DNA of 40,057 nucleotides from Deltaproteobacteria bacterium (GTDB lineage: Bacteria > Myxococcota_A > Polyangia > JAAYKL01). The translations under genes were made by a program, and so were the position numbers. The DNA is taken from NCBI GenBank assembly GCA_016935665.1, contig JAFGQN010000122.1, forward strand, positions 1 through 40,057, read 5' to 3'. Shown in pieces: positions 10,728 to 28,759 of the stretch (the stretch's first letter is position 1; every line of letters begins with the position of its first letter). The notes beneath the pieces are model-generated. The model ran no database searches. It was not told where the DNA came from and was given only the letters and a program-made list of their open reading frames with translations.

Positions 10728-12017
10728 ATGACCGCACCAACATCGACAAACGCAAGGACAGCGGTTGACGCTCGAGACTTGTACAAAACCGCCCTGGATA
10801 TGCAAACGGATACGTTCTTCGTCCTGGACATCACCTGTGGCAGGGCGGTGCACTGGAATCGTGCCTTCAGGGAAATTTCCGGTTACAGCGATGAAGAAAT
10901 CGCCCAGTTGAAAGCTCCGGACAGCTACTATTCCCCTGAAGAACTGGAGAGGGCGAATGCTGCCATTTCCAGAATTATCGCCGGAGAATCAGCGACATTG
11001 GAGATTTCGCTGATTACCAAAGACGGCAGGCATATTCCCACCGAGTACCAGGCATCCCCTATTCCAGATGACACCGGTGTCATCAAATATCTGATTTCCG
11101 TGGGGCGGGACGTCACTGATCGCCGCCGCATAGAGACAAGCACCCGGGAAAGCGAACGGCTGTTTAGAGTGCTCATCGAGAATATTCCCAGCGTGGCGTG
11201 GATTACCGCACAAAATGGGCGCACCAGCTACATCAGCCCCAATGTTTCAAAAATCTATGGATACACCCCCGAAGAGATCCTCGCTGCGGGTGATGCACTG
11301 TGGATGGAACGCATACATCCCGATGACCGGGAAACGGTGCGCAATGCTTTTGCTGCGCTGTTTTCCCTGCGTTGCCCGTTCGACGTCGAATATCGGTTGT
11401 TGCATCGCGACGGGCGTTGGATATGGCTGCACGACCGCGCCACGATACTCGAAGAAGAAGATGGTGTCCCGTTTGCTATTGGCGTTTTTTCAGATATTAC
11501 CGAACGCAAACTGGCAGAGGAGGAAAAAGCTCGTCTGGAAGAGCATCTGCGGCAATCGGAGAAACTGGAAGCGGTGGGGCAGCTGGCCGGCGGGGTGGCC
11601 CACGATTTCAACAATCAGCTGGCCGGAGTACTGGGTTACGCCGAACTTCTGCGGGAGCTGGTCCGGGACAATCCCACCGCGCTGAACTTTGTAAACAGAA
11701 TCATTCACGCATCCGAAAGGTCCGCAGATTTGACGGCCAAATTGCTGACATTCGCCCGTAAAGGCACCGTTGAGGAAATGCAGGTGGATATTCACCAGAT
11801 TGTCCACGAAGTCATCTCCATACTGGAACACAGTGCCGACAAGAAAATTTCAATCCAACATCGGTTGCATGCAACAGGCCTACATACGCGAGGAGAGCTT
11901 TCGCAGCTGCAAAATGTTCTTTTAAATCTGGGTATTAATGCATGCCAGGCCATGCCCGGGGGGGGGGACTTTGCAGTTTCGCACCGATGTGGTGACACTG
12001 AAGGATATCGACTGTGA
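10728..12017 (+). CDS. Hybrid histidine kinase, N-terminal part (frameshifted): PAS-PAS-HisKA
   Basis: First part of a PAS-containing hybrid sensor kinase, 429 residues. PAS 1 spans about 17-132 and PAS 2 about 142-262. A short coiled linker leads to HisKA with the H-box AHDFNN (phospho-acceptor His292), then the start of the ATPase domain including the N-box LLNLGINACQAMP. The frame then meets a run of ten G (11958-11967) and stops 50 bases later after a nonsense tail. With nine G, the frame would continue into the fragment ending at 12690, giving one 653-residue PAS-PAS-HisKA-HATPase-REC protein. No membrane segment is seen, so it is cytoplasmic. No strong ribosome site precedes the ATG. 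As it stands, this product lacks the G boxes and could not autophosphorylate. Confidence 0.85.
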   Translation: MTAPTSTNARTAVDARDLYKTALDMQTDTFFVLDITCGRAVHWNRAFREISGYSDEEIAQLKAPDSYYSPEELERANAAISRIIAGESATLEISLITKDGRHIPTEYQASPIPDDTGVIKYLISVGRDVTDRRRIETSTRESERLFRVLIENIPSVAWITAQNGRTSYISPNVSKIYGYTPEEILAAGDALWMERIHPDDRETVRNAFAALFSLRCPFDVEYRLLHRDGRWIWLHDRATILEEEDGVPFAIGVFSDITERKLAEEEKARLEEHLRQSEKLEAVGQLAGGVAHDFNNQLAGVLGYAELLRELVRDNPTALNFVNRIIHASERSADLTAKLLTFARKGTVEEMQVDIHQIVHEVISILEHSADKKISIQHRLHATGLHTRGELSQLQNVLLNLGINACQAMPGGGDFAVSHRCGDTEGYRL

Positions 12018-12690
12018 GAAAATGCCCATGGAACTGGTCCCCGGAAATTATATCTCACTGGAGGTGTCAGACACTGGCATCGGCATGACACGCGAGGTTG
12101 CAGCCCGCATCTTTGAGCCCTTTTTTACCACCAAGGGCCAGGGCACCGGTCTTGGGCTCTCTGCGGTGTACGGTGTGCTGGCGGCACATAAAGGGGGAAT
12201 CTGCGTGGATTCAACTCCCCAAAAGGGCACCACATTCAGGATATATCTGCCACTAATGGAAGGAGCGAATACGCAACGCCGCTCCAGCTATATGCCTCCA
12301 ATAAATCAGGCGAACCTGCAGATTCTTCTGGTGGACGATGAGGAAGTCGTCCTTGAAGCCACCTCGCAAATGCTGCAGAGTCTTGGTTACCGGGTCATTA
12401 CCGCCGAAGACGGTCGCCAGGCCGTCGATGTGTACCGGGCGCGCCACCATGAAATCGACCTTGTCATCATGGACATGATGATGCCCCATAAAAATGGCCG
12501 TGAGGCGTTTGAAGAAATGCGGGAAATCAATGGCGCCATTCGAGTGCTCATCTCAACGGGGTATAGCGTCATGGATGAAACCCGCACCATCGCTCAAAAT
12601 AGCGTGGTGGAGTTTATTCACAAGCCATTTCGAAGACATGAACTGGCCAAAAAAATCGATATGGCACTGGCCCGGACGGATTCCGGATGA
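11938..12690 (+). CDS. Hybrid histidine kinase, C-terminal part (frameshifted): HATPase-REC
   Basis: Second part of the split sensor kinase. The meaningful sequence starts at the G run; the ATG at 11938 lies before it, and the first few residues are out-of-frame. The ATPase domain has the G1 box SDTGIGM, the F box EPFFTTK and the G2 box GTGLGLSAVYG. After a short linker comes a receiver domain with the acidic pair DDEE, phospho-acceptor Asp in IMDMMMP, Thr in STGYS and Lys in IHKPF, all in the expected places. So the whole pathway piece would be functional if the frame were restored. The stop is four bases from the stop of the convergent lipoprotein gene. Alternative readings are two separately translated parts, or a phase-OFF allele. 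Confidence 0.82.
   Translation: MHARPCPGGGTLQFRTDVVTLKDIDCEKMPMELVPGNYISLEVSDTGIGMTREVAARIFEPFFTTKGQGTGLGLSAVYGVLAAHKGGICVDSTPQKGTTFRIYLPLMEGANTQRRSSYMPPINQANLQILLVDDEEVVLEATSQMLQSLGYRVITAEDGRQAVDVYRARHHEIDLVIMDMMMPHKNGREAFEEMREINGAIRVLISTGYSVMDETRTIAQNSVVEFIHKPFRRHELAKKIDMALARTDSG
11958..11967 (+). repeat. Ten-G homopolymer at the kinase frameshift
   Basis: Ten consecutive G follow ATGCCC in the hybrid kinase gene. Nine would keep the ATPase domain in frame (Pro-Gly-Gly-Gly-Thr-Leu-Gln). Total length from start to final stop is 1963 bases, one more than a multiple of three, which agrees with a single extra base. Confidence 0.9.
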
Positions 12691-12694
12691 ATCA

Positions 12695-14098
12695 TCAAAT
12701 ATCGCTCACCCCTGCAGCTTCATCTTCGTCTGTGGTTTCATCTTCGTCTGTGGTTTCATTTTCGTCTGTGGTTTCATTTTCGTCTGTGGTTTCAGCTTCG
12801 TTAGCGGTTTCCTCTTCGTCTTCGGTTTCATCTTCGTCTCCGGCTTCGGTGTCAAACACAAAATCGTCCGTGTCCGATATCACATCCACAAACTCCCATT
12901 TTTTTCCGCCGTAAAAGCCCATGTGATCCAGCCATACATCAAAAGATTTGGTCGCTCCGCTTTTGAGGGGCACCACTTTTATCTGGATGTTAATAATCCG
13001 GTTGGGATCCAGTGGAGCGGCTTTTCCCCAGCCTTTTTGCACAAATTCACTCCAGTCCGCATGATATTCCCGCCATGCGCCATCCAGTTCAAAGCGTACC
13101 TGATGAAAATCGTAGCATTTCTCACCACCATCCTCATCGCAAAGACCGCCATCTGTCAGGGGAGCTGTTTCAACCAGGTTTAACGCCACCTCCACAGCTG
13201 CATCTCCCATGGCCCACATCACAAATCCTTCCTGTCCCATATCCGCCAGACAGCGGGGCTCCTTCAATTTGTCTTCGTGGATATAGTCCAGTTTAAAATT
13301 CTCTTCGCCATCCACATCTTCCCATATTTTCCCTGTGGTATAAACAGAACCGGTCACGCTGTACTTTCCCACCATATCGTTTTTGTGTTTCCCAACAAAT
13401 ACATCGCGATCATCTGACTTGAATTTGCTGTCGATAACGCCGGCAAACAGCGCGTCGTCTTTACAAATCGGATCTCCGTCCGAGTTGATTCGTCCCTTTG
13501 AGAATGTCGCAGGCAGATTTCCATTCTCGTCCAGATGCAACCGTTTTCCGCCGGAACCTATCTCCTTTATTGGCAGGTATATATAGTCGGAAAAATAAAT
13601 GCCAAAGCCAACGCCGTCGCCTCCGGCGATCCCAAGCATGTGAAACGAATTCTGGCTGTCAAAGTGTGGAAACGGATTGGACCTGTGGGTCTCCAGCCCC
13701 GACTGGGCATGACATTTTGTTGGATACGGTTCCAAATCCGCCGAGGTATCGCCTTTTTTCATGGCCTCCATCAGTCCTTTAGTATCAGTGTCTTTGAATG
13801 TTGCGTAAAACTCCTCAACGGTCTGCGTCTTACAGTATTCCGATTCCTCTGGATATGGTTCGATGTAGTCATCTCTGATACCCGGATCGTCAAAGGAATA
13901 AATATATCCAAGGGGCTGCCCCTCCCGGACAATCGCCTCGGCATTTCGGTTTGTCCCGGACTCGAATTCCGAAAGCAGATATGTTATTTCATACCTGGGG
14001 TCGGGTTCAGTGGAATACTCCTCTGGCACCTCGGCGCAACTGCACTGAAAAGCAATAGCCCAAAAGATTGTCATTACAAAAACACGATAAGAAAACAT
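12695..14098 (-). CDS. Secreted/lipoprotein of unknown function with acidic repeat tail
   Basis: 467 residues, family not recognised. ATG start preceded by GGAGG. The N-terminus is a signal sequence; Cys near residues 19-21 (FQCSC) may be a non-canonical lipobox, otherwise it is secreted. The middle is rich in Gly, Asp and aromatic residues. Around 330-410, patterns such as FELDGAW, RIINIQIKV and FDVWLDHMGFYG resemble galactose-binding-like (CBM11/CIA30-type) jelly rolls, so carbohydrate binding is a guess. The last 45 residues are an acidic repeat of six residues (Thr-Thr-Asp-Glu-Asn/Asp-Glu) encoded by an 18-bp tandem repeat. The gene is tail-to-tail with the histidine kinase, four bases apart, and follows the 684-residue lipoprotein gene by 155 bases, perhaps in the same transcript. 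Confidence 0.8.
   Translation of the reverse strand: MFSYRVFVMTIFWAIAFQCSCAEVPEEYSTEPDPRYEITYLLSEFESGTNRNAEAIVREGQPLGYIYSFDDPGIRDDYIEPYPEESEYCKTQTVEEFYATFKDTDTKGLMEAMKKGDTSADLEPYPTKCHAQSGLETHRSNPFPHFDSQNSFHMLGIAGGDGVGFGIYFSDYIYLPIKEIGSGGKRLHLDENGNLPATFSKGRINSDGDPICKDDALFAGVIDSKFKSDDRDVFVGKHKNDMVGKYSVTGSVYTTGKIWEDVDGEENFKLDYIHEDKLKEPRCLADMGQEGFVMWAMGDAAVEVALNLVETAPLTDGGLCDEDGGEKCYDFHQVRFELDGAWREYHADWSEFVQKGWGKAAPLDPNRIINIQIKVVPLKSGATKSFDVWLDHMGFYGGKKWEFVDVISDTDDFVFDTEAGDEDETEDEEETANEAETTDENETTDENETTDEDETTDEDEAAGVSDI
12725..12850 (-). repeat. 18-bp tandem repeat, seven units, coding acidic tail
   Basis: Seven head-to-tail 18-bp units starting TTCGTC on the plus strand. The first four are almost identical, the last three are degenerate. 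They lie at the 3' end of the convergent lipoprotein gene and encode the Glu/Thr/Asp hexapeptide tail. The in-frame unit length allows length change without frameshift. There are no spacers, so this is not a CRISPR array. Confidence 0.9.
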
Positions 14099-27152: not shown

Positions 27153-28169
27153 CTAATGCTTTCCATTCGCTTTTTGTCCAATATCCACCTGCTCGTGGAT
27201 GTTGACCGTTGTGCCACGCCGGATGACAATGATTCTTTCCTTATCAAACCCCAAATCCCTGTTTACTATTCGCAACGAATGTTCTCCCACGGGCAGCGCA
27301 TGATTGCGCAGCGGTGTCGTCCCCATCAGTACGCCATCCACATGCACGTATGCCCACGGCCGCGCAAAAACCCTAAGTCTGCCCATGTTTTTTTGGGCCA
27401 GAGCCTGCATAATCTGCCGATTCTGAGTAGCGTCTTCATCCAACGTTTCCATCTCCGCCCGGGCTTCCATATCTAAATCGTCCGCAGATATTGTCAATTC
27501 CGGTGGTGTGCCCTGAAGTTGCATCACCACTTCATCCTCAGCAATTCCCTTATCGCGTTGCGCCTTCTCTTTGAGCATCGGCGTTCCAGAAGATGCCCCT
27601 TGTCTGGAAGAAGAAAGTTCGTTCCCCACAATAATGGCACTGGATTCGGTAACCCCGGCGGTTCTCTGCATCCACCGTATCACTCCCACCGTCGCAGTGA
27701 CAACGACCAGCAAGGCAATGCCTCCAATCCATACACGCCGATACAGCCGTCGACGCTCTCTGGAGGCCACGGATGCCAATCCCGTCTGGGAGGGAGCGGA
27801 TGACTCACTCTGTTCCATCCCGGCCGCCGGCTCGGCAGTTGCGATGGCACCGGTGCTGCCCTTCACGTCTGAAGTGATCAATCCAAACAAAAACCTGGTG
27901 GTATCGAGCGCGCTGTGCTCGGGCAGTGGTAATCCGTCCAGCACCGCCATCGCCGCTGAAGCGGAACCAAACCGTTCCTGCGGGTTCGCGGTGATGATAT
28001 GCGACAAATAATCGTTAATCTCTGCGCAAAGCCATGGAATTTCAGGCAGTTGCGGGTTCATCGCCGATGCGAGAATCTCCGTTTCGCTCGTTCCCTGTAT
28101 AAATCGACGTCCGGTAAGCATTTCGAACAGCACCAATCCCAGACTATACAAGTCGGAGGCCGGACTCAC
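27153..28169 (-). CDS. Ser/Thr kinase, C-terminal part (frameshifted): C-lobe, TM, PEGA
   Basis: Second part of the split kinase. The frame is read from GTG at 28169, which overlaps the TGA of the first part; upstream of that the frame is out of phase. It begins with the kinase C-lobe (SPASDLYSLGLVLFEMLTGR, then PQERFGSA). A linker of about 90 residues follows, then one membrane helix (GGIALLVVVTATVGVI) and a C-terminal PEGA domain (GRLRVFARPWAYVHVDGVLMGTTPL, HSLRIVNRD). PEGA domains lie on the periplasmic side. With one extra base in the five-G run at 28176-28180, it joins the first part to give 535 residues. Alternatively, stop-restart at GTGA could make a split kinase. Confidence 0.82.
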   Translation of the reverse strand: MSPASDLYSLGLVLFEMLTGRRFIQGTSETEILASAMNPQLPEIPWLCAEINDYLSHIITANPQERFGSASAAMAVLDGLPLPEHSALDTTRFLFGLITSDVKGSTGAIATAEPAAGMEQSESSAPSQTGLASVASRERRRLYRRVWIGGIALLVVVTATVGVIRWMQRTAGVTESSAIIVGNELSSSRQGASSGTPMLKEKAQRDKGIAEDEVVMQLQGTPPELTISADDLDMEARAEMETLDEDATQNRQIMQALAQKNMGRLRVFARPWAYVHVDGVLMGTTPLRNHALPVGEHSLRIVNRDLGFDKERIIVIRRGTTVNIHEQVDIGQKANGKH

Positions 28170-28759
28170 TCCCTGCCCCCGGCCTGCTCCGGCGAAAGAT
28201 ATGTTAATTTGCCTTTCACCATACCCGTCCGCGTCACCCGCGAACTGCCTCGGGCCCGTGCAATGCCGAAATCCGTCAGTTTGGCGACACCGTCTTTGGA
28301 CACCAGTATATTGTGCGGCGAAATATCCCGGTGGATGACGGTCTGTACTCTGCCATCCATTTTCACTGCCGAGGCGGCTTCCAATGCGCAAAGAATCTCT
28401 CGAAATATATTAAACGCCACACCAATCGGAATTGGCATGCCAATCGCAGAGGCTGCGGAGATAATTTTCTTCAAATCCCATCCGTCAATACATTCCATGA
28501 CGATAAAACAATTTTCCGCAGAGGTATCGAAATCAAACACCTTCACCACATTGGGATGGTTCAGTGCCATGGCGAACCTGGCTTCCTGCCTGAACATTCG
28601 CAGAAAATCCGCATCGTCACTGAATTCGGGACGAATTCGTTTAATACAGATGCGTTGTTGCGCCAGAGATTCATCATCGGGACAGTTTGCCGAAAAAATC
28701 TCAGCCATTCCGCCCTGTGCCATTTTATACAGTAATCGATATTTTCCCAGTTTCAGCAT
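28166..28759 (-). CDS. Ser/Thr protein kinase, N-terminal part (frameshifted)
   Basis: First 197 residues of a eukaryote-like (Hanks-type) kinase. The Gly-rich loop is at 12-20 (KMAQGGMAE), catalytic Lys40 (CIKRI), H143-R144-D145 in IHRDISPHN with Asn150, and DFG 163-165. It ends at TYLSPEQAGGRE just after the APE-equivalent. The frame is lost there: bases 28759 to 27153 total 1607, two over a multiple of three, so one base is missing near the G5 run. The ATG has GGGGAG only three bases away. A start 63 bases beyond the thiL stop makes co-transcription with thiL likely. The N-terminus lies in the cytoplasm. Confidence 0.86.
   Translation of the reverse strand: MLKLGKYRLLYKMAQGGMAEIFSANCPDDESLAQQRICIKRIRPEFSDDADFLRMFRQEARFAMALNHPNVVKVFDFDTSAENCFIVMECIDGWDLKKIISAASAIGMPIPIGVAFNIFREILCALEAASAVKMDGRVQTVIHRDISPHNILVSKDGVAKLTDFGIARARGSSRVTRTGMVKGKLTYLSPEQAGGRE

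Follow-up and report, generated by a model that had tools for sequence, protein, structure and literature searches.

A ten-G tract breaks the frame of a hybrid histidine kinase gene: slippage in cells or in assembly as likelier origins than an evolved switch

The kinase locus and its G tract

The window analysed here, 40,057 nucleotides in length, is one whole contig (C181) of the 8.16-Mb draft genome of a Deltaproteobacteria bacterium, which comprises 249 contigs. Its forward strand carries a run of ten G at positions 11958-11967, the only G run of at least 8 in the window; at the genome rate, 0.07 G/C runs of at least 10 would be expected per 40 kb. The run lies 63% of the way into a kinase gene, and two entries of the open reading frame list overlap at it. 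The first, the N-terminal frame (10728-12017, plus strand; 429 aa), comprises by Pfam matches two PAS domains, a HisKA domain and the opening portion of the ATPase domain with its N-box, and closes with 16 out-of-frame residues. The second, the C-terminal frame (11938-12690, plus strand), encodes the post-N-box portion of the ATPase domain (profile positions 34-109) and a receiver; it includes start codons such as the ATG at 11938, and its homology to other proteins begins at the tract. In a dicodon model trained on the genome itself, coding signal follows the first frame as far as the tract and passes to the next frame beyond it. The first-pass annotation of this DNA had described a hybrid kinase gene reading PAS-PAS-HisKA and losing its frame at this run, and both the position of the break (by the sequence, the reading frames and the dicodon signal) and the preceding domains (by Pfam) are borne out.

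Skipping one base joins 413 residues to 240 in a continuous protein of 653 aa, the length that had been predicted for a nine-G tract, with the domain order PAS-PAS-HisKA-HATPase_c-REC of a hybrid histidine kinase. The read-through retains the H, N, G1, F and G2 boxes together with the receiver Asp and Lys, all of which are, as assembled, spread over the two frames. A motif scan places the H-box with the phospho-acceptor His (AHDFNN, read-through residue 292) at 11598-11615 on the plus strand, and the G1 (DTGIGM), F (FEPFFTT) and G2 (GTGLGL) boxes of the ATPase in the second frame, within the approximate bounds 12069-12155 of the same strand. The N-box stays on the N-terminal fragment, and as the tract lies directly behind it, the break splits the catalytic domain itself, leaving the second frame alone with a match to positions 34-109 of the 111-position HATPase_c profile, as against 4-109 for the read-through. 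The earlier description of the second frame as a complete ATPase domain followed by a receiver is thus correct for the receiver but not for the ATPase, which lacks its N-box. Neither half contains a further stop or frame break and every catalytic residue is kept, which suggests that the break is recent. Beyond the kinase, the adjoining 467-aa gene has at its 3' end a tandem repeat of approximately 18 bases (12715-12850) that encodes a tail rich in Asp, Glu and Thr.

The tract overlies the conserved motif AMPxGGxLxF, which takes the form AMPGGGTLQF in the read-through, where nine G, as three GGG codons, encode its Gly-Gly-Gly. Motifs of relatives, namely AMPGGGTLRF, AMPGGGTLEF and AMPGGGELKF, align to it without an indel, indicating that nine G is the expected length. 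The junction is crossed in one open frame by 135 of 137 homologous alignments and none of the 137 ends there; the ancestral gene would, on such sequence comparisons, have encoded one intact protein. Among about 115 homologous N-box motifs, none of them from a true ortholog, the glycine codons are mixed and the longest G run is 7. In this genome GGG accounts for 19% of the glycine codons, and hence three of them in succession are unremarkable among its many Gly-Gly-Gly sites.

Protein searches across 289 class-level genomes recovered no ortholog with the tract, the best homologs being 34-47% identical, and the best kinase matches are scattered across many phyla. When synteny was traced through the neighbouring VIT/VWA protein, a gene present in relatives at 45-62% identity, the kinase and the other tested neighbours were never found beside it in a conserved order. 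A search of a plasmid collection likewise gave no match.

Long G/C runs and other broken signalling genes in the genome

Each of the 40 G/C runs of at least 9 in the 8.16-Mb genome was inspected together with its flanking sequence. Their number agrees with a geometric expectation of 39-53 derived from shorter runs, and for runs of at least 10 the 15 observed stand beside an expectation of 10-14; genomes of the same genus show similar counts. Approximately 22 of the 40 are intragenic with coding signal on both sides, and about 21 of these 22, comprising four other 10-mers and around 17 nine-mers, are in frame and nearly all encode GGG or PPP, the kinase G10 being the sole exception. Tracts that switch freely would be in frame only about one third of the time (P about 1e-9 for the observed proportion). 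The genes carrying such runs include those for the glycine cleavage P-protein (gcvP), topoisomerase I (topA), dihydroorotate dehydrogenase, glycosidases, a permease and several signalling proteins. Given that the counts match expectation and that gcvP, topA and dihydroorotate dehydrogenase are among the carriers, the G/C tracts of this genome look incidental. A genome-wide contingency system was accordingly rejected on the run counts and frame statistics, and wholesale homopolymer error is excluded because nearly all other long G/C runs were assembled in frame.

Three of the 15 runs of at least 10 are located at contig ends (C10, C190 and C210), where 0.02 would be expected within 20 bp, suggesting that reads or assembly fail at such runs and that an error at the kinase G10 is plausible. 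The contig-edge runs (at the end of L121, the start of L148 and the end of L154) are 10-13 bases in length, possibly reflecting length heterogeneity or read failure. Two other hybrid histidine kinases carry an in-frame G9 (L130, 9956-9964; L123, 9936-9944), in one case on the G1 box (DTGGGI) and in the other near the N-terminus. A G11 (L131, 1312-1322) is situated at the 5' end of a gene combining CLC chloride-channel, TrkA_C and CBS domains, with coding signal only after the run, and by its position it is a better candidate for an expression switch than the kinase G10 tract. In a genome of the same class (G026), G runs of 36-39 on contigs 84 and 110, one of them at a contig start, look like a sequencing artefact.

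With no fewer than 150 HATPase_c domains and some 63 protein kinase domains, the signalling repertoire of the genome is very large, and it includes other genes with broken frames. On the minus strand of the window (28166-28200), a Ser/Thr protein kinase with a PEGA domain is split at about 28180, its profile match running from 9 to 168 and then from 171 to 255 in the next frame; the halves meet at GCCGGGGGCAGGGAGTGAGTCC, a GTGA stop/start overlap within a G-rich stretch, and no other of the approximately 63 protein kinase domains is clearly frame-split. A second hybrid histidine kinase, on contig 22 (L204, about 2560-2570), is frame-broken at the G1 box of its ATPase in the absence of a homopolymer, apparently through a short deletion, and its two halves match successive parts of an intact paralog (L178). 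On the whole, two or three ATPase domains among 150 are cut. A dicodon scan covering some 570 gene calls (0.68 Mb) yielded only a handful of candidate frame breaks, four of them strong. Two of these four resemble normal boundaries between genes, with a start codon and a sequence similar to a ribosome-binding site, and hence the background rate that the scan provides is approximate only; the kinase split at about 28180 also escaped it. A truly broken gene is therefore plausible at roughly the 1-2% frequency observed elsewhere, and in the present case the tract would be the likeliest site of the break.

Origin of the tenth G

The tenth G most likely arose through a slip, either in cells or in assembly, an evolved on/off switch being less likely. 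As there is a single assembled allele and the nearest homologs are so distant, a slip in cells is not separable from assembly error. The explanation that we tentatively prefer is an incidental one-base slippage in cells at a site that was not selected as a switch. An ordinary PAS-PAS-HisKA-HATPase_c-REC kinase, in which the N-box tail AMP-GGG-TLQF happens to be encoded as GGG GGG GGG, would thereby possess a nine-G run that, judging from such runs in other bacteria, is hypermutable. Strand slippage may then have added one base to give ten G in the sampled cells, so that the frame changes midway through the ATP-binding domain. The predicted product is the 429-aa PAS-PAS-HisKA fragment. In histidine kinases the G1, F and G2 boxes are needed for productive ATP binding and phosphorylation of the His, and the fragment, from which all three are missing, would be capable of neither ATP binding nor autophosphorylation. 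Cells with the ten-G allele would thus have the pathway switched off, and their product would also have lost the receiver unless this is independently initiated. A second slip could restore the frame, as would in principle be expected from a poly-G gene of C. jejuni, for which one assay gave a switching rate of about 2e-2 (PMC8437040); there is no sign of selection on the tract as a switch. When compared with other kinases of the PAS-PAS-HisKA-HATPase_c-REC architecture, the read-through has the same order and every catalytic box, but its frame is broken at the tail of the N-box.

It is quite possible, although we consider it somewhat improbable, that the cells have nine G and an intact kinase, and that the additional G was contributed by the assembler or by the reads. 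The termination of contigs at long runs, far above chance, is consistent with such an artefact, as is the failure of Illumina sequencing on G tracts that has been described under the name "G's end" (PMC9187656), and the occurrence of a second frame break, that at about 28180, at a G-rich stretch of the same 40-kb contig could mean a local sequence error. The correctly framed intragenic 10-mers and nine-mers, including those in gcvP and topA, argue against it, as does the mere handful of candidate breaks recovered by the dicodon scan. The homopolymer-free break in the contig 22 kinase, a broken signalling gene elsewhere in this genome, fits the preferred explanation of a slip in cells.

A selected, phase-variable contingency locus, in which slippage between nine and ten G toggles the kinase for bet-hedging in the manner of BvgS, appears unlikely. 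It would account for an intragenic G run, of a kind with unstable length in other bacteria, that sets the frame by its length (one base less than G10 restores it) and breaks a signalling kinase of which both halves are intact; precedents are known in bvgS (PMC1891110), flgS/flgR (PMC5021803) and the pilin genes of Bifidobacterium (PMC9187656). The tract is, however, absent from all homologs and is placed well inside the gene, long runs are no more frequent in this genome than expected and occur in housekeeping genes, and the in-frame proportion of the intragenic runs is far from that of freely switching tracts. On these grounds the phase-variation switch suggested in the first-pass annotation, although mechanistically possible, is not supported. 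The caution in the same annotation that such runs are error-prone in assemblies remains pertinent.

Recoding, in which some full-length kinase would arise through RNA polymerase slipping, or ribosomes shifting by +1, at the G run, is very unlikely. The downstream frame does keep its coding signal and all catalytic residues, and bacterial transcriptional slippage at A or T runs is documented (PMC1088944); nevertheless, the two-frame arrangement is kept in no homolog, the alignments crossing the junction almost invariably in a single frame, and no evidence was found for G runs of this length as a programmed signal. The idea of two separate functional proteins, a PAS-PAS-HisKA protein and an ATPase-receiver protein, is scarcely credible despite the start codons in the second frame, and was rejected: the break interrupts the ATPase domain, the second piece has no N-box, and the homologs are single proteins.

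Comparison with known switches and implications

Among the closest known parallels is BvgS of Bordetella pertussis, a hybrid histidine kinase switched by a C6/C7 coding tract (PMC1891110). In both cases a G/C homopolymer lies within the gene of a hybrid sensor kinase and one added base truncates the kinase, but for BvgS the alleles, the mixture in culture and the phenotype have been demonstrated, whereas here there is one assembled allele; moreover, the sensory part of the present kinase consists of two PAS domains, and its tract lies on the N-box of the ATPase. The Bifidobacterium breve pilin genes bbr_0113 and bbr_1889, which are interrupted by G tracts of mixed length (G11/G12) in their populations and show no active initiation in the second frame (PMC9187656), resemble the kinase gene in that a long G run parts two frames of one gene in a reference sequence. 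They differ in that their tracts show genus-wide conservation and variable length in culture, while the kinase tract is absent in homologs. The FlgS/FlgR two-component system of Campylobacter jejuni, which is phase-variable through homopolymeric A tracts (PMC5021803), likewise unites homopolymer slippage with a two-component system, but the tracts there consist of A and the organism has many contingency loci, whereas the present tract consists of G and lies in a genome that is not enriched in such tracts. A phase-variable hybrid kinase in this large-genome environmental bacterium, with G9/G10 at the ATPase N-box toggling a whole pathway, is in our estimate improbable. To our knowledge, the lineage is not known for contingency loci.

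Taken together, these observations call for caution in that a homopolymer breaking a frame need not be a phase-variation switch, given that the runs of this genome occur at chance frequency and are otherwise in frame. Were nine and ten G in fact mixed in the cells, the switching of a master sensor kinase of the BvgS type would extend beyond animal-associated bacteria. As matters stand, the locus illustrates that a conserved Gly-Gly-Gly motif combined with the choice of codons can yield a fragile G run.
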